Shown here in pieces: positions 2,506 through 50,338 of a stretch of 64,000 nucleotides of DNA. A program made the position numbers and the translations under genes. Every line of letters starts with the position of its first letter. The stretch's first letter is position 1. The notes beneath the pieces are model-generated. The model saw only the letters and a program-made list of their open reading frames with translations, made no database searches and was not told where the DNA came from. The DNA comes from Acetobacter cerevisiae (GTDB lineage: Bacteria; Pseudomonadota; Alphaproteobacteria; Acetobacterales; Acetobacteraceae): the NCBI RefSeq assembly GCF_001580535.1, contig NZ_LHZA01000156.1, positions 62,001 through 126,000 on the forward strand, in the 5' to 3' direction.

Positions 2506-3231
2506 ATGGTTTCTACACTGCGGCAATCGCAGTTTTTCTACACCACAGCGCCCCAGCCCTGCCCTTATCTACCGGGACAGATGGAGCGGAAGGTGATTGC
2601 GGATCTCGCCGTCCCCAATGCGGACGCCCTGCATAACCGCCTCTCCCGCGCTGGCTTCCGGCGCAGCCATACGCTGGCTTATGCGCCTGTGTGCGCCACC
2701 TGTTCGGCCTGCACGCCTATCCGCATTCCCGTGCATCGCTTTGAACCAGACCGCACGCAGCGGCGCACCCTGCGCCACAATGCCGATCTGCACGCCATGC
2801 GCATCCCGCCCATCACCACGCCGGAACAATACGCCCTCTTCCGCCGCTATCAGATAGCACGCCATACGGACGGTGACATGGCCACCATGACGGGAGAAGA
2901 CTATCGCAGCATGGTGGAAGACACACCCGTGGAAACCATGCTGTTTGAATTTCGAACAGAAGCGGGTGAACTGATGATTGTCAGCCTGATTGACCGGCTG
3001 GAAGATGGGCTGTCGGCTGTCTACAGCTTCTATAACCCGGACCTGCCCCGTCGTTCACTCGGTAGTCTGGCCGTGCTGTTCCTTATTGAGGAAACCGCAC
3101 GCCTTGGCCTGCCTTACCTGTATCTGGGTTACTGGATTCAGAAAAGCCGGAAGATGTCCTACAAATCCCGCTTCCAGCCTGCCGAAATCCTGACCCACGG
3201 CGTCTGGCACACGCTGGATGCTGAGGCGTAA
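2506..3231 (+). CDS. bpt: Aspartate/glutamate leucyltransferase
   Basis: Aminoacyl-tRNA-protein transferase that adds leucine from Leu-tRNA to proteins with N-terminal Asp or Glu, marking them for ClpS/ClpAP degradation (bacterial N-degron pathway). At 241 aa it has the usual length. The N-terminal half carries the CPYLPGQMERK segment and the cysteine-rich AYAPVCATCSACTPIRIPV block; the C-terminal GNAT-like half has YLYLGYWIQKSRKMSYKSRF, which is characteristic of Bpt/ATE1-type transferases. It is convergent with parC, the stop codons being nine bases apart. The family is often annotated as arginyltransferase; bacterial members of this type use leucine. Confidence 0.93.
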   Translation: MVSTLRQSQFFYTTAPQPCPYLPGQMERKVIADLAVPNADALHNRLSRAGFRRSHTLAYAPVCATCSACTPIRIPVHRFEPDRTQRRTLRHNADLHAMRIPPITTPEQYALFRRYQIARHTDGDMATMTGEDYRSMVEDTPVETMLFEFRTEAGELMIVSLIDRLEDGLSAVYSFYNPDLPRRSLGSLAVLFLIEETARLGLPYLYLGYWIQKSRKMSYKSRFQPAEILTHGVWHTLDAEA

Positions 3232-43103: not shown

Positions 43104-44572
43104 GCAAGCCCGCTACCATTGCGTCCAGCCGCCCGCACTCAGGCTTTTTACGCCTGCGTTCGGTCAGCTTACGGTTTGCACTGGTTTACGGTACGCTTTT
43201 TATCTCCTCCGCCGTGCTGTTTCTCTCCTTTATCTGGTGGGGAACAGTCGGCCTGCTTGAACACCGGGTTGAGCAGGCCATCACGACCGATTCCCGCGCT
43301 CTGATGAATATCTGGGCAGAAGGCGGCCCCACTGGCTTGAGCATGATTATTGATGACAGGCTGGAACAGGACATTGATGACAATGCCCTGTATCTGCTTG
43401 TCAACAAGGACAACAAATGGGTTGCAGGCAATCTCGCAGAATGGCCACAACAGATTGCCTGTAACAATCACTGGTTCACCATGCCTGTCCAGCGCTCCTA
43501 TACGCAGGATATGGCTAAAGTCCGGGCGTATGCCCTTCCTGATGGCTACCGCCTGCTGATAGGCCGGGATATCAGTGGCCGCACACTGCTGCGCAAGATC
43601 GTGACCGACACGCTCCTCTGGGCATGTCTCATGGTTACCTTACTGGCAATCGGTGGTGGGTGGCTGGTCCGCCGTCTCTTCCGCCACGTTATCCACTCCA
43701 TCAGCCGCACCACGCAGGCCATTACTCGTGGCGACATGTCACGCCGTATGCCCGTACAGGGCTCGGATGATGAGCTGGATGAAATCGCCCTCACCATTAA
43801 CGAAATGCTGGAACGTATCAGCCGCCTGATGGACGGTGTCCGTCAGGTGTCCAACGCTATTGCGCATGATCTGCGTACGCCCATTACCCGCGCCCGGACG
43901 CAACTGGAAGATGCGGCGCTGCATGCAAAAAATGAGGATGAACTCCGGGCCGTCATTGAGCAGGCTGTGGGCAATCTGGACAATGTCACTTCCATCTGCG
44001 AGGCCCTGCTGCGTATTGCCCAGATTGAATCCGGCGCCCGCCGCTCCGCCTTTGTCCTGTTTGACCTGATCCCGGCTCTTCGGGATGTGTGCGAACTGTA
44101 TGAAGCGGTGGCCGACGAGCTGGGGCTCACTTTTGTACAGCATTTGCCAGACCACCTGCGTTTTTTTGGGGACCGCGCCATGTTCCAGCAGGCCGTCGCC
44201 AACCTGATGGATAACGCCATCAAATTCTCCCCTCCTAACGGCACAATCACCCTCTCAGCAAAAGTCCTCTCTACAGCGCGGCGCGCGGACGGCAGCTTTG
44301 GCAAACAACTCAGCCTCAGCGTAGCGGATGAAGGAATTGGAATGAGCGACGCTGATATGGCGCGTGCTTCCGAACGGTTTTTTCGGGCCGAGCAGGCCAG
44401 AAACACTCCCGGCTCCGGCCTGGGTCTGGCTTTGGTACAAGCTATTGTGCAGCTTCATGATGGGCAGTTGCAGCTGGCTTCTAACTCTCCAGGGCTAATA
44501 GCTCGTATTGAAGTTCCGCTGCCTGATACAGAAATTGTTCCGCTCACACAGCCCATCGCTGGCATTCATTAA
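43100..44572 (+). CDS. Sensor histidine kinase
   Basis: Membrane-bound sensor kinase, 490 aa. Two membrane helices (about 27-49 and 171-190) flank a periplasmic sensor of about 120 residues. HAMP follows (190-245), then HisKA with phosphoacceptor H256 in NAIAHDLRTPITRARTQL, and the HATPase domain with NLMDNAIKFSPPNGTI, DEGIGMSDAD and GSGLGLALVQAI. It pairs with the preceding regulator by overlap. The signal sensed is unknown. Confidence 0.95.
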   Translation: MSKPATIASSRPHSGFLRLRSVSLRFALVYGTLFISSAVLFLSFIWWGTVGLLEHRVEQAITTDSRALMNIWAEGGPTGLSMIIDDRLEQDIDDNALYLLVNKDNKWVAGNLAEWPQQIACNNHWFTMPVQRSYTQDMAKVRAYALPDGYRLLIGRDISGRTLLRKIVTDTLLWACLMVTLLAIGGGWLVRRLFRHVIHSISRTTQAITRGDMSRRMPVQGSDDELDEIALTINEMLERISRLMDGVRQVSNAIAHDLRTPITRARTQLEDAALHAKNEDELRAVIEQAVGNLDNVTSICEALLRIAQIESGARRSAFVLFDLIPALRDVCELYEAVADELGLTFVQHLPDHLRFFGDRAMFQQAVANLMDNAIKFSPPNGTITLSAKVLSTARRADGSFGKQLSLSVADEGIGMSDADMARASERFFRAEQARNTPGSGLGLALVQAIVQLHDGQLQLASNSPGLIARIEVPLPDTEIVPLTQPIAGIH

Positions 44573-44656
44573 TTTCTGCACGTTTAGCATAAATAAACCA
44601 TTACAAATTTTACTTTGCCTTGAAAAAGACATTGGCATTCTTAAAAATTATTAAGA

Positions 44657-45013
44657 ATGAGACGATCCCTGCCTTTCGCTTTGACGCTGACCTTAGGGAG
44701 CATCGCGGCAACAGCCATCTCCCCCCGGCTTTCAGCCCAAGCGATTCTCCCACCACCACCTCCTCCTCTGCTCGAGGGACGGCGTATCATGCCTCTAATG
44801 CCATCTCCCGAACCGGTGGTAATTACATCAGACAGTGTTGCCTTTTGTTTCCGGCTGTCTCGTGTCATTGAGACTTATAATAAAGGCACGCTGCCGTATA
44901 CAGTCAGACAGCTACAGGAAGAAGGGACTGATCTTTGCCGGCAGGGATTGGTGCGTTCCGGGCTGATCCGTCTGCGACGCGCCATTATCACCCTGAAAGG
45001 GACAACGCCTTAA
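44657..45013 (+). CDS. Small exported protein of unknown function
   Basis: A 118-aa protein with a Sec signal peptide (basic MRRS, hydrophobic core, cut near LSAQA). A proline run of about seven follows the cleavage site; the mature part has two cysteines and a helical C-terminal half with LRRAIITLKG. Its stop codon directly abuts the ATG of the SIMPL gene, so the two form a unit. There is no clear Shine-Dalgarno sequence; an AT-rich stretch with TTGAAA and TAAAAA 16 bases apart lies within 40 bases upstream, suggesting a very short leader. Confidence 0.72.
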   Translation: MRRSLPFALTLTLGSIAATAISPRLSAQAILPPPPPPLLEGRRIMPLMPSPEPVVITSDSVAFCFRLSRVIETYNKGTLPYTVRQLQEEGTDLCRQGLVRSGLIRLRRAIITLKGTTP

Positions 45014-45730
45014 ATGCGCCTCTCCTCTCGCCTCACCAGCCTTAGCGCTCTGGCCCTCGCTCTGACCGCTATTACCCCGGCGCTTGCTCTGGCTCAGAAC
45101 AAGCCGGAAGACAGCTATACCCGTCTGGAAATCAGCGGTTCCGGCTCTGTCAAGGCGGCTCCTGACCAGCTCATTGCCCGCTTCCGCGCGGAAAGCCGCG
45201 ATAAAACAGCCGCCGCTGCCCAGAAAGCCGTAAATACTCTGGTGCATCATGCTGTTGAGCAATCTGCCAAAACAGCCGGGGTCAAAGCCGCTGTGCTGCA
45301 ATATTCCGTCTCAGAAAATCGGCCAGACAAAGCCCCGGCATCCTGGACCGCCTCGCAGGCACTCACCTTTACTGCGCCCGATGGCTCCGGTCTGCTGCCG
45401 CTCACGGGTGATCTTCAGGGTGAAGGACTGATGCTGGAAGATCTTTCCTGGTCTCTTTCGCCGGAGAACCAGAAGAAACTGATGCTGGACGCTGAGAAAA
45501 ATGCTGTCGAGGATCTAAAAAAACAAGCCGACACGCTGGCGGCCTCTCTTGGCCTGCATGTGGTGCGCTTTGCATCAGTCTCCATGTCTAGCGGCGGATT
45601 CCCGCGCCCTGTCATGATGATGGCCATGGCGGCCCGTGGACCTGCAGACAGCGCCCCGCCACCGTCCAGCACGGCAGAAGTTCAGACTGTACGGGCCACT
45701 GCCAACGCCACGGTGCTGCTGGCACCGTAA
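45014..45730 (+). CDS. SIMPL domain-containing periplasmic protein (DUF541)
   Basis: Exported protein, 238 aa. The signal peptide ends in ALALAQ near residue 28. The SIMPL domain begins RLEISGSGSVKAAPDQLIARFR, and its later part has SWSLSPENQKKLMLDAEKNAVEDLKKQADTLAASLGL. Family members (YggE-like) are periplasmic and linked to oxidative-stress tolerance; the biochemistry is unknown. Translation is probably coupled to the upstream exported protein (zero-base gap). It ends at a bidirectional terminator. Confidence 0.87.
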   Translation: MRLSSRLTSLSALALALTAITPALALAQNKPEDSYTRLEISGSGSVKAAPDQLIARFRAESRDKTAAAAQKAVNTLVHHAVEQSAKTAGVKAAVLQYSVSENRPDKAPASWTASQALTFTAPDGSGLLPLTGDLQGEGLMLEDLSWSLSPENQKKLMLDAEKNAVEDLKKQADTLAASLGLHVVRFASVSMSSGGFPRPVMMMAMAARGPADSAPPPSSTAEVQTVRATANATVLLAP

Positions 45731-45775
45731 CGCTGAGGCGTGGGTATCGAACCTGCGCGGGCATGTCGTACCAAT

Positions 45776-45819
45776 AAAAAAAGCGCCTGTGCGAGGATAA
45801 CCCGCACAGGCGCTTTTTT
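45776..45819 (+). terminator. Bidirectional terminator between the SIMPL gene and infC
   Basis: GCGCCTGTGCG and CGCACAGGCGC (45783-45793 and 45803-45813) form an 11-bp stem flanked by seven A on the left and six T on the right, serving the SIMPL gene and infC. Confidence 0.85.
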
Positions 45820-45866
45820 GTGTCTGGTAAGGATGCAGGACGATGCCCTGCAACCCCAATCAGAGC

Positions 45867-46403
45867 TTAACGGGGTGCGAGCACCATGATCATCTGCCGG
45901 TTTTCAAGGCGCGGCATCTGCTCAACTTTAGCCTGCTCATCCATCTCGGTCCGGATACGCTCCAGAACTTTGATGCCCAGTTCCTGATGCGCCATTTCAC
46001 GGCCACGGAAACGCAGGGTGACTTTCACCTTGTCGCCATCACCCAGGAAGCTTTTCACAGAACGCATTTTAACCTGGTAGTCATTTTCGTCGATATTCGG
46101 ACGAACCTTGACTTCCTTGATCTCAATGACCTTCTGCTTTTTCCGGGCTTCGTTGCGCTTTTTCTGCTGCTCGTACTTGAACTTGCCGTAGTCAAGAATC
46201 TTGGCAACGGGCGGTTCTGCGTTCGGGCTAATCTCAAGAAGATCAAGTCCGACGCCATACGCGCGAGCCAGTGCATCGCGGGTCGACATGACACCCGCCA
46301 TCTCGCCTTCTTCGTCAATCAGACGAACCTGCGGTACGCGGATCTCTTCGTTAACACGTGGTCCCTCGCGGGTGGGCGGCGCGGGAATAGGGGGTCTGGC
46401 TAT
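45867..46403 (-). CDS. infC: Translation initiation factor IF-3, apparent AUA start
   Basis: IF-3, which proofreads start-codon selection on the 30S subunit, 178 aa from the proposed start. The N-domain reads [20 protein letters not shown], then [22 protein letters not shown]; the C-domain has [18 protein letters not shown] and [17 protein letters not shown]. The first ATG in frame (46301) would remove the conserved N-terminal block. Upstream there is no ATG, GTG or TTG before an in-frame TGA five codons back; an ATA at 46401-46403 lies six bases after AGGAG. E. coli infC uses AUU for autoregulation, so a rare AUA start is credible here. Confidence 0.9.
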
Positions 46404-46409
46404 GGTCAG

Positions 46410-46414
46410 CTCCT
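46410..46414 (-). promoter_or_regulatory. Shine-Dalgarno site selecting the AUA start of infC
   Basis: AGGAG on the minus strand, six bases before ATA. It is the only good ribosome site ahead of the conserved IF-3 N-domain. Confidence 0.75.
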
Positions 46415-46422
46415 GTCATGGA

Positions 46423-46457
46423 TAAAAAAACTAAACAGAAGCACCTCCCGGTGCCTC
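46423..46457 (-). terminator. Attenuator-like hairpin directly upstream of infC
   Basis: On the minus strand GAGGCACC and GGTGCTTC pair (8 bp, including one G-U) around a GGGA loop, followed by TGTTTAGTTTTTTT. The T-run ends nine bases before the infC Shine-Dalgarno site, leaving no room for a separate infC promoter downstream of it. Confidence 0.55.
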
Positions 46458-46559
46458 CGCTTACAGTGTTATTATGTGCGCAATTCTTAGCCGTTTATCA
46501 AGCATATCCGGCCAGAAAACAGACTCATTCCAGCCCTGCCAAAAACAAGGAGCCGAGTC

Positions 46560-48491
46560 TCACGCTTTTTTGCGCAGATCTGGCGGCGTTGCTTCCTCGG
46601 CAATGCGGGTCACAACCTCATTAAACCCAAAGGTTTCCTGATCTTTGCCACCGAGCCGGCGCATGGCGACGGTCCGCTCTTCCGCTTCCCGGCGGCCGAC
46701 CACCAGAATAATCGGCACACGGGCCACGCTATGCTCACGAATCTTGGAATTGATCTTGTCATTCCGCACGTCGGCTTCCGCAGCCAGACCGGCCGCACGC
46801 AGGGCAGCAGCCACTTCTTCCGCATAAGGTCCGGCATCACTGACGATAGACGCCACCACGACCTGCACCGGAGCGAGCCAGAGCGGGAAGCGGCCTGCAT
46901 GCTGCTCGATCAGAATACCAAGGAAGCGCTCAAAGGAGCCTAGAATAGCGCGGTGCAGCATGACGGGGCGATGACGGGCAGAATCTTCGCCAATATAGCT
47001 GGCATCGAGTCGTTCCGGCAGCACAAGGTCAACCTGCAGGGTGCCGCACTGCCAGTCACGCCCAATGGCATCACGCAGCACGAACTCCAGCTTCGGACCA
47101 TAGAACGCGCCCTCACCCGGATTATACTCATATGTCACACCGGCCACTTCACACGCTTCCTTCAGCGCGCTTTCGGCTTTGTCCCATGTTTCATCGCTGC
47201 CCGCCCGCTGTTCCGGCCGGTCTGCAAATTTCACACGGACATGCTCAAAGCCCAGATCCTTGTAGACTTCATGCAGCATCCGCACGAACTGCACGGTCTC
47301 ATCGGCAATCTGGTCTTCCGTACAGAAGATATGCGCATCATCCTGCGTAAAGCCGCGCACACGCATCAGACCATGCAGCGCACCAGAGGGCTCATACCGG
47401 TGGCATGCACCGAACTCGGCCATACGGATCGGCAGTTCACGGTAGGACCGCAGACCGTGGCGGAAAATCTGCACATGACACGGACAGTTCATGGGCTTGA
47501 GGGCGAGGGTCTTATCCTCATCCTCAACAGTCGCCACAAACATGTGGTGGCGATATTTGTCCCAGTGGCCAGACGCTTCCCACAGCCCACGGTCCAGAAG
47601 CTGCGGAGTGCGCACCTCCTGATACCCGCCACGGGTCTGCGCCCGGCGCATATAGTCCTGCAGCGCGCAATACAGACGCCAGCCTTTATGATGCCAGAAG
47701 ATCTGCCCCACCGCTTCTTCCTGAAAATGGAACAGGTCCATTTCCCGGCCAATACGGCGATGATCGCGGCGTTCGGCTTCTTCCAGCTGATGCAGGTGGG
47801 CGTCCAGCTCTTTCTGGTCGCGCCAGGCCGTGCCGTAAATACGGGTCAGCATGGGGTTGCGATGGTCACCGCGCCAGTAAGCGCCAGCCACCTTCATCAG
47901 TTTGAAGGCCGTGCCAACATCCTTAGTGTTCCGCAGATGCGGGCCACGGCACAGATCCAGCCATTCGCCCTGACGGTAGATGGAAATATCCTCATCTTCC
48001 GGCAGATCACGGATCAGCTCGGCTTTGAAGCGCTCACCTTTTTCTTCAAAGAAAGCGATGGCTTTATCCCGCGGCCAGACTTCACGCACGAACGGCTCGG
48101 CATTGGCCACAATTTCCTTCATCCGCGCTTCAATGGCGGAGAAGTCTTCCGGCGAGAACGGCTCGTTCCGGTAAAAATCGTAATAGAAGCCGTTTTCAAT
48201 GGACGGCCCGATGGTGACCTGCGTGCCGGGGAAGAGAGACTGCACAGCTTCGGCCAGCACATGGGCGGCGTCGTGCCGGATCATCTCCAGAGACTCCGGG
48301 TCCTTCCGGGTAATGAAGCGGACGGCAGCATCCTCGGCCACGGAGCGACCAATATCCTGCAGCGCGCCATTGACCTCCATGGCCAGTGCCGCTTTGGCCA
48401 GCCCCGGCCCGATGGCTTCGGCAATGGCCGTGCCCGTGACCGGCCCGTCAAAACTGCGAACGGATCCGTCAGGCAAGGTGATGGCAGGCAT
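46560..48491 (-). CDS. thrS: Threonyl-tRNA synthetase
   Basis: Class II aminoacyl-tRNA synthetase, 643 aa. It has the N-terminal TGS domain ([20 protein letters not shown]), the editing domain with [12 protein letters not shown], and the catalytic core with [34 protein letters not shown] and [12 protein letters not shown]. The zinc ligands are the Cys of NCPCH and the His of DDAHIF and MLHRA. The C-terminal anticodon-binding domain starts near [12 protein letters not shown]. It is followed by infC, the common thrS-infC order; rpmI and rplT do not follow here. Confidence 0.97.
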
Positions 48492-48536
48492 GGAAGAACT
48501 CCGGAGATCAAATGGTTGTAAAGGCTTTTAATGGCG

Positions 48537-49460
48537 TCAGGAGAGCGCGGCTGCAACCCTGTTGACGGAAAGTGTCGCCAGATCCCGCACAGAAAGCACA
48601 CAAACCTGCCCCGGCACGCGCTCGAGGGGGGCTGTGAGGGCGGGATTACTGTCCCCAGAAAACAAGACCACGCTGGGGCAGCCCATGATAGCGGCCAGAT
48701 GCATCGGCCCGGTATCATTCCCCACAGCAACCTGCGCCCGGGCCGCCAGACCGGCCAGTTCCGGCAGAGTGGTCTGGCCTGTCAGATCCAGCGCCTGCGG
48801 GCAGACCTGCCTGATCGCCTCCGCCAGGGGTTTATCGGCCCCACTTCCCACAACAACAGGGCGCAGTCCCCGGCTTTCAAACCGGGTTGCCAGTTCTGCA
48901 TACCGGCGCACAGGCCAGCGCTTGGCCGGGCGATGGGGGGAAGCTCCGGGCACAATCAGCCCATAGGGCACATCCAAATGCGCCCCCAGCTCTGCCAGCC
49001 ACGAGACATCCGGCAAAGGCACGTCTGGTATCCCGGCTCCCAGCAACTGATCGCGCTGGCGGGCGCGGGTATGCATGTCATTCCGCCGGGGATTGGCGTG
49101 CACCAGGGGAGAGCGCCCTACATGCCCGCACCACATCTTCGGGCGTCCGGCCAGCACATAATAGCGGGCCGTGCGGCTGGAGGTCTGAAGGTCATAGATC
49201 CGGTCGTAACCGCGCAGCTGTTGCCGCAACGCCAGCAAGGCCGGAAGATTGCCCCATGATGGACGCTGATCGACCTCAACCGCATCAAACCACGGGGAAA
49301 GACGGGCGAGTTCCACAAAGGGTGAGGTCGTCAGTAAGGTTATCTGTGCTGTGGGGTGTGCTGCCCGGATAGCCTGAAACGGCCCGAAGCTCTGCACAAA
49401 ATCCCCCAGCGCACCGAGCCGGATGACCAGAATACGGCGCAAACTCTGGGGTTGCGTCAC
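48537..49460 (-). CDS. Glycosyltransferase family 9 (heptosyltransferase-like)
   Basis: ADP-heptose:LPS-heptosyltransferase-like GT-B enzyme, 307 aa. The N-terminal RILVIRLGALGDFVQSFGPFQAIRAAHP and the C-terminal VAVGNDTGPMHLAAIMGCPSVVLFSGDSNP (nucleotide-sugar site) are GT9 signatures. It probably adds heptose or another sugar to lipopolysaccharide core. It overlaps the preceding TPR gene by four bases and lies 45 bases before thrS. Confidence 0.9.
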   Translation of the reverse strand: MTQPQSLRRILVIRLGALGDFVQSFGPFQAIRAAHPTAQITLLTTSPFVELARLSPWFDAVEVDQRPSWGNLPALLALRQQLRGYDRIYDLQTSSRTARYYVLAGRPKMWCGHVGRSPLVHANPRRNDMHTRARQRDQLLGAGIPDVPLPDVSWLAELGAHLDVPYGLIVPGASPHRPAKRWPVRRYAELATRFESRGLRPVVVGSGADKPLAEAIRQVCPQALDLTGQTTLPELAGLAARAQVAVGNDTGPMHLAAIMGCPSVVLFSGDSNPALTAPLERVPGQVCVLSVRDLATLSVNRVAAALS

Positions 49461-50338
49461 GGCGAATCCGGGTCAGCAGCCAGAACGGCCAGATCCTGCC
49501 GGGCCAGATCGGCCTCATGGCTGTCAGGGGAGAGGTCCAGCACATGCTGCCAGTCCGCCTGTGCGCCGGTGGCATCTCCTACCTGCTCCCGAATAATCCC
49601 GCGCTCCAGCAAAGCCGCAGCATCGTCCGGCATCCGCTGCAAGGCCAGCGTAATATGCTGGGTGGCTTTATCCAGTTGCCCGAGCCGCCGCTCAGCTGAG
49701 GCCAGCAGCACAAACGCCTCAGTGGGAGCTTCTGCGCCCCGCGCAACCAGCGCGGTCAGATCCGTCACCACAGCCCCGGTATTGCCCTGCTCAAGCAGGG
49801 CGCGCGCTTTGGCAAGCCGCAAATTCGTATCCCCGGGGCGAATGGACAGGCCATACGCGACGATATTCAGCGCGCCGGGCGGATTACCGGCAGAAAGCCA
49901 GGCTTCTGCGGCTTCTTCCGCCATCACAGCCCGCAGGCTGGCAGAACTTTCCGGGCCGGAGGGCGGCGCTTTGCGCACCAGATCATCCAGCTCCTGCGCC
50001 GCGTCCAGTTCATCGCCCAGTTCCAGCAGGGCCAGAGCATGGCAATGCCGGGCTTCCCTGTCTCCGCCGTGCTTCATCCAGTCCTGTGCGTAGTCCCGCG
50101 CACCGAAGGGGTCTTCTTCCACCATGCTCATGCACTCGGCCAGAGCCCATGTTTGCGGAGCCTCTTTGCCCCCATGGCCGGCGGTCATTCCCGTCCCCAC
50201 CTGCCCAACTGCGGGATGGGGCCGGATGGTGGCCGCGCTGGCCGGAACACCGGCCAGCAACAGGCCTACTCCGAGTGTCGCAGCAAATGGTGCGCAGCGC
50301 GCCGGAACGGACCGGACAGAGAAGGACAAGTGCGTCAT
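49457..50338 (-). CDS. Exported TPR-repeat protein
   Basis: Periplasmic or envelope protein of about 293 aa. A signal peptide (FAATLGVGLLLAGVPASAA) covers the first 35 residues. The rest is helical with several TPR-like units, for example RHCHALALLELGDELDAAQELDDLV and ALLERGIIREQVGDATGAQADWQHVLDLSPDSHEA. Translation is coupled to the GT9 gene by a four-base overlap, so an envelope-assembly role is likely. The start MTHLSF at 50338 is preferred to 50350. Confidence 0.82.
   Translation of the reverse strand: MTHLSFSVRSVPARCAPFAATLGVGLLLAGVPASAATIRPHPAVGQVGTGMTAGHGGKEAPQTWALAECMSMVEEDPFGARDYAQDWMKHGGDREARHCHALALLELGDELDAAQELDDLVRKAPPSGPESSASLRAVMAEEAAEAWLSAGNPPGALNIVAYGLSIRPGDTNLRLAKARALLEQGNTGAVVTDLTALVARGAEAPTEAFVLLASAERRLGQLDKATQHITLALQRMPDDAAALLERGIIREQVGDATGAQADWQHVLDLSPDSHEADLARQDLAVLAADPDSP

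Follow-up and report, generated by a model that had tools for sequence, protein, structure and literature searches.

A very likely AUA start codon for infC in Acetobacter cerevisiae, conserved in the genus and apparently inherited with the other non-NUG starts of Alphaproteobacteria

The analyzed window, a stretch of 64,000 nucleotides from the Acetobacter cerevisiae contig NZ_LHZA01000156.1, carries on its minus strand the gene infC (45867..46403), which encodes translation initiation factor IF-3 (IF3) and comprises 178 aa when read from an ATA codon. Its 5' neighbor on the same strand is thrS (46560..48491), assigned to threonyl-tRNA synthetase by the Pfam domains tRNA-synt_2b, HGTP_anticodon, tRNA_SAD, and TGS. 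The infC product scored 247.9 bits against TIGR00168, being the single, intact IF3 match in the whole genome, and residues 17-182 of the translation P0001 aligned with a solved IF3 at an E value of 2.5e-59. Profile and alignment evidence thus identified an IF3-encoding gene, as an autocontrolled infC of the E. coli type requires, and the nearest named relatives, belonging to Gluconacetobacter, Komagataeibacter, and Acetobacter, were 90-92% identical. The operon thrS-infC-rpmI-rplT, typical of that type without defining it, is absent here: the adjacency of thrS and infC is present, rplT is located on contig C35, away from infC, and the next long open frame 3' of infC is convergent. A search of the region 44000-50000 with Rfam at gathering thresholds returned no match.

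The initial annotation had stated that the conserved IF-3 N-terminal block reaches 34 codons 5' of the first ATG, that no ATG, GTG, or TTG precedes it back to an in-frame TGA, and that an ATA lies six bases after AGGAG; all three statements were borne out on the minus strand. With the upstream block included, the infC product covered 70 of 70 positions of the Pfam family IF3_N (111.6 bits) and 85 of the 86 positions of IF3_C, whereas the product read from the first in-frame ATG (46299..46301, 34 codons 3' of the ATA) retained only IF3_N positions 20-70 (76.9 bits) and lost the first 19, which marks this ATG as a false start cutting into the IF3 N-domain. Zero ATG, GTG, or TTG codons occur in frame between that ATG, where a mechanical caller restricted to these three codons places the start, and the TGA at 46416..46418, which bars starts further 5'. 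The Shine-Dalgarno (SD) sequence AGGAG (46410..46414), recognized from the sequence and its relatives, is separated by the six bases CTGACC from the proposed AUA start codon (46401..46403), which is itself supported by conservation in the genus and in Alphaproteobacteria. Eight ATA/ATT/ATC codons in the window have AGGAG or GGAGG 4-9 bases 5' and at least 100 open codons; since the infC codon is the only one of these SD-backed candidates that lacks an in-frame ATG, GTG, or TTG upstream, its site does not appear to be a chance occurrence. Even when three mismatches are tolerated, the 21-base pattern CAGGAGCTGACCATAGCCAGA has a single occurrence in the window, and 100 shuffles gave 0.00 on average.

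The alignment of the start among relatives, which the initial annotation had proposed, showed ATA in the start column of all 49 genomes of the genus, exactly 13 codons 5' of the GPRVN motif. The SD block and the ATA were nearly invariant within the genus, and the DNA further 5' was variable. Across codons 2-34, variable sites numbered 17, 10, and 32 at codon positions 1, 2, and 3 (33 each), closely resembling the 15, 10, and 32 observed in codons 35-67, whereas the 45 nt 5' of the ATA showed no coding pattern (13, 15, and 13 variable sites of 15 each); translation therefore starts at, or very near, the ATA. Each of the eight Ile columns conserved in the genus uses more than one codon; the start column has a single one, with a third base A in 49/49. 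An SD run of at least 4 was present at the start in all 42 distinct genus sequences, the interval from the upstream stop to the start being free of ATG, GTG, and TTG in only 32 of these 42, window included. As a separate observation, the infC frame of Asaia astilbis JCM 15831 (L048) is interrupted a few codons 5' of the PRVN block, with an ATA in another frame, probably through an assembly error.

The comparison was then widened to 267 alphaproteobacterial loci, in which the start column held ATA in 211, ATC in 35, ATT in 17, and CTG in two, the remaining two being the frameshifted L048 and the unaligned L250, which by eye appears to start with ATG; one of ATA, ATC, or ATT thus occupied the column in 263 of the 267. 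These counts include 129 class loci, drawn from the better-scoring matches among the 276 of 289 class genomes with a match, nine loci from the phylum search, four of which repeat genomes already in the set, and 80 named loci, all counted as alphaproteobacterial, including one labelled Nitrosovibrio (L039) that is 80% identical; the genome under study, retrieved again as L001, was excluded. In five ATT loci, MAFFT had put ACC or CCC in the start column, and the call was shifted one codon to the ATT beside it. The two CTG loci, L045 and L047, belong to Roseomonas (start codon at 3013), and CTG has been reported as IF3-sensitive. Beyond the start codon, the 247 distinct genes starting with ATA, ATC, or ATT used ATA for 104 of 2515 Ile codons. 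At the start itself, an SD run of at least 4 was found in 242 of the 247 distinct sequences; among in-frame positions further downstream, 596 of 3705 had one. The interval from the upstream stop to the start lacked ATG, GTG, and TTG in 169/247, and an ATG, GTG, or TTG followed the AUH codon within fewer than 15 codons in 71/247, so that those sequences alone could not exclude a nearby canonical start.

We additionally applied a rule in which the SD alone decides between ATA/ATT/ATC and ATG/GTG/TTG. Across 258 loci, this rule selected ATA/ATT/ATC in 242, ATG/GTG/TTG in eight (two of them in the genus), both in four, and none in four, and its within-gene control on the same 258 loci gave 30, 39, and 10 for ATA/ATT/ATC, ATG/GTG/TTG, and both. 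In the genus members L008 and L013 it prefers a TTG situated 3' of an SD-like GGAGG that belongs to the leader hairpin; in the window, a stop codon intervenes. A further 60 class genomes, outside the 129 class loci counted above, contributed 47 loci, which the rule divided into 26 with ATA/ATT/ATC, eight with ATG/GTG/TTG, three with both, and 10 with no SD-backed candidate or no candidate; genome size was 0.6-1.6 Mb in 31 of the 47. With only 26 of these loci assigned to ATA/ATT/ATC, the loop seems to be dispensable in places. The 13 of 289 class genomes in which the class search found no infC match again yielded none on a repeat search within the 60. In the divergent alphaproteobacterial genomes of 0.6-1.6 Mb represented by L250, L305, L311, L312, L316, L317, and L329, infC apparently starts from ATG or TTG. 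A non-NUG infC start is therefore the rule in Alphaproteobacteria, and its apparent losses fall among genomes that are divergent or reduced. By comparison of relatives (the invariant genus ATA, the coding-like codons 2-34, and the SD-only rule), the AUA start put forward by the initial annotation is strongly supported, and infC of A. cerevisiae very likely starts at the AUA at 46403-46401.

Other readings of the start were weighed against the same data. A start at the CTG at 46409-46407, two codons 5' of the ATA, would make use of a possibly IF3-sensitive codon positioned after the in-frame TGA, and CTG itself occupies the start column in the two Roseomonas loci; this CTG, however, abuts the SD with zero spacer and is not conserved in the genus (C at position -5 in 20/49, T at position -4 in 6/49), and the stop codon found directly 5' of the ATH codon in 23 of the 247 distinct alphaproteobacterial sequences also argues against it, leaving it very improbable. 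That translation begins instead at ATG 46301, with an untranslated block upstream, agrees with the output of the mechanical caller and with the internal ATG from which infC is annotated in Azospirillum lipoferum, but the deletion of 19 of the 70 IF3_N positions and the evolution of the upstream block as coding sequence make it extremely improbable. A missing ATG caused by sequencing error, frameshift, or pseudogene formation could be imagined for a single genome, and the frame of the Asaia astilbis locus is broken near the same point; the identical ATA in all 49 genus genomes and the one intact IF3 gene in this genome leave such an explanation with virtually no credence, and conservation refutes it. 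An out-of-frame ATG at 46419-46417 was rejected, as it has no SD by eye and is missing in several genus members (e.g., L008, L011, and L013). Elsewhere in the window, a second candidate non-canonical start, a CTG at 2477 on the minus strand opening the frame 2477-1263 with an SD-like site and no upstream NTG, was dropped: the frame matched no Pfam family and showed stops inside the match in eight of nine matching genomes other than its own, which makes it probably a shadow reading frame.

The distribution of start codons bears on the origin of this start. In 20 loci of other Pseudomonadota read by eye, ATT, ATC, or ATA stood beside the SD in 19, and the remaining one (L267) resembles GTG. On the IF3 tree, parsimony required 35 start-codon changes over 242 rows, whereas 100 shuffles of the labels averaged 50.6 changes and never fell below 46; when only the 239 ATA, ATC, and ATT rows were retained, 32 changes were required, and the rows outside this class comprised one ATG (L250) and two CTG. 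Nearly all switching therefore stays among ATA, ATC, and ATT, although the number of changes may be too high, since the tree represents a single short protein, IF3 without its first residues (L048 and L062 excluded). The initial annotation had regarded the AUA as an independent version of the E. coli loop, which the data do not support: independent invention implies NUG in sister lineages and a derived AUA here, and instead ATA, ATC, or ATT was found in 263/267 alphaproteobacterial and 19/20 other Pseudomonadota loci. With so many non-NUG loci, shared descent with switching among AUA, AUC, and AUU is simpler than separate invention, and the start in A. cerevisiae would accordingly be an inherited one with an occasional third-base change.

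The best explanation for these features, which we hold to be highly probable, is that infC is translated from AUA as fMet and repressed by IF3 through an inherited loop of the E. coli type with a different codon. The AGGAG six bases 5' would position the ribosome to start at the AUA, which the usual initiator tRNA would decode as fMet; because the AUA lacks a third-base G, IF3 would destabilize the initiation complexes formed on it. When free IF3 is abundant, infC would be poorly translated, and when it is scarce, translation would rise, so that the loop would correspond to the AUU loop of E. coli using another codon of the same IF3-sensitive class. In E. coli, infC starts at AUU (PMC5472188, PMC5559785), and its translation is reported to go down with excess IF3 and up with its shortage (PMC5472188). 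The A. cerevisiae locus resembles that system in having the IF3 gene 3' of thrS, a strong SD, and a non-NUG start near the N-terminus; by comparative evidence, it presents two traits of the E. coli type, a start codon without a 3' G near the IF3 N-terminus and an SD at normal spacing. In the E. coli-type control locus (L341), infC is annotated from ATT and followed by rpmI-rplT, in contrast to the AUA and the rplT on another contig here. Comparison among relatives supports the start position and its conservation, and the E. coli homology makes it plausible that IF3 controls the AUA start of its own gene.

The AUA might alternatively do nothing more than fix a low constitutive translation rate, with IF3 feedback absent in this lineage. 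Such a reading is in line with the non-canonical starts of three other genes in S. aureus, which gave about 10% of the expression of an AUG reporter in poor medium, one of them reaching up to 30% in rich medium (PMC13009471), and no IF3 titration for Acetobacteraceae stood among the titles listed by the literature search. On the other side, the discrimination of IF3 against start codons without a 3' G is described as general in PMC4611024, and the protein aligns along its full length with a solved IF3, so that we consider a constitutive rate without feedback improbable.

A conserved leader element supplies another potential level of control. On the minus strand, a promoter-like pair TTGATA / CATAAT with a spacer of 19 (46471..46501) coincides with a GCACATA[AC]T element that 43 of the 49 leaders in the genus carry and is a putative infC promoter; the pair was not among the hits of a consensus promoter scanner that accepts only spacers of 16-18. 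Between the promoter-like site and the SD, on the same strand, lies a terminator-like hairpin with a T-rich tail (46422..46463; stem 46463-46432, 14 pairs). On account of this position, of the fold of the 62-nt leader (z -4.21), and of the pairing preserved in 82.9% of cells across the 30 leaders, compared with 43.7-51.4% when the partner was slid, one may ask whether the hairpin is the principal regulator of infC, acting either by termination or by switching the SD between a free and a hidden state. The covariation alignment used 30 of the 42 distinct genus leaders (L158 and L159 being absent from the list), the 12 excluded belonging to a group with other hairpins or being mis-cut (L018), and its covariation score of 0.352 exceeded all 500 shuffles and all slid versions. 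Nine pairs were changed on both sides, a number within the range of the slid versions (6-11), so that the alignment supports the pairing and, to a lesser degree, compensatory change. When a 96-nt stretch is folded to its minimum energy, the 3' arm of the hairpin pairs alternatively with ACAGGAGC and hides the infC SD, but this fold was no better than shuffles (z -0.87), and a search for covariation of the SD-hiding pairing found none. Four of the excluded leaders, folded singly, gave z values of -1.60 to +0.49, and only 20 of 49 genus leaders have five consecutive T close to the start. Control of infC mainly through the hairpin is thus unlikely in our estimation, and a leader switch acting on the infC SD might be taken as a lead only; the conserved genus hairpin may add a second, RNA-level layer of control, or it may simply be the thrS terminator.

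Non-NUG infC starts are known from several lineages. The closest parallel in codon is S. aureus, where the same gene starts at the same AUA, as mapped by retapamulin ribosome profiling (Ribo-Ret), and where the authors suggest autoregulation (PMC13009471); that organism belongs to a distant phylum, and its start is experimental, whereas ours is comparative. The infC of Streptomyces starts at ATC, IF3 repressing there the non-canonical start of sigR (PMC5472188), and that of Xanthomonas at ATT, with peptide evidence 5' of the annotated start (PMC5559785); both are non-NUG like the present start, but differ from it in third base and lineage. An AUU start has likewise been reported for B. subtilis infC (PMC1805508), and misannotation is described as frequent (PMC5472188). 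Public plasmid and chromid records hold homologs from other genera with an annotated non-NUG start, namely ATA in Azospirillum brasilense (L340) and Falsirhodobacter algicola and ATT in Sinorhizobium meliloti. The pifC gene of Rhodobacter sphaeroides, reportedly described by Babic et al. in 1997, may also start at AUA. In the record of Azospirillum lipoferum 4B (L337, NC_016588.1), infC is annotated from an internal ATG, as opposed to the ATA of A. brasilense. Our literature search, with subscription literature mostly out of reach, showed no paper on the infC start in Acetobacteraceae among the titles listed. The infC of A. cerevisiae belongs, as an ordinary and conserved case, to a regulatory design that is known and in part already annotated in public records; the mechanism is not new.

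The choice among AUA, AUC, and AUU followed lineages. Among named loci with a recorded order, Hyphomicrobiales had nine ATT and two ATC, and Rhodobacterales had 23 ATA and two ATC; given these tallies and the ATA fixed in the genus, lineages seem to hold on to a particular codon. At the 82 loci with a GC3 of at least 0.8, the start was ATA in 56, ATC in 15, and ATT in 11. Selection for the exact codon AUA as the alphaproteobacterial infC start, for example in setting the IF3 threshold or the growth-rate response, is a tentative proposal to which we give somewhat less than even chances. Reading from the AUA gives the correct N-terminus to an essential protein, which callers based on ATG, GTG, and TTG truncate. 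With the feedback reasoned here from E. coli, the textbook design would be an old one, kept across Alphaproteobacteria with a lineage-specific choice of AUA, AUU, or AUC, and this choice poses a simple, testable question, namely whether the third base tunes the control by IF3.
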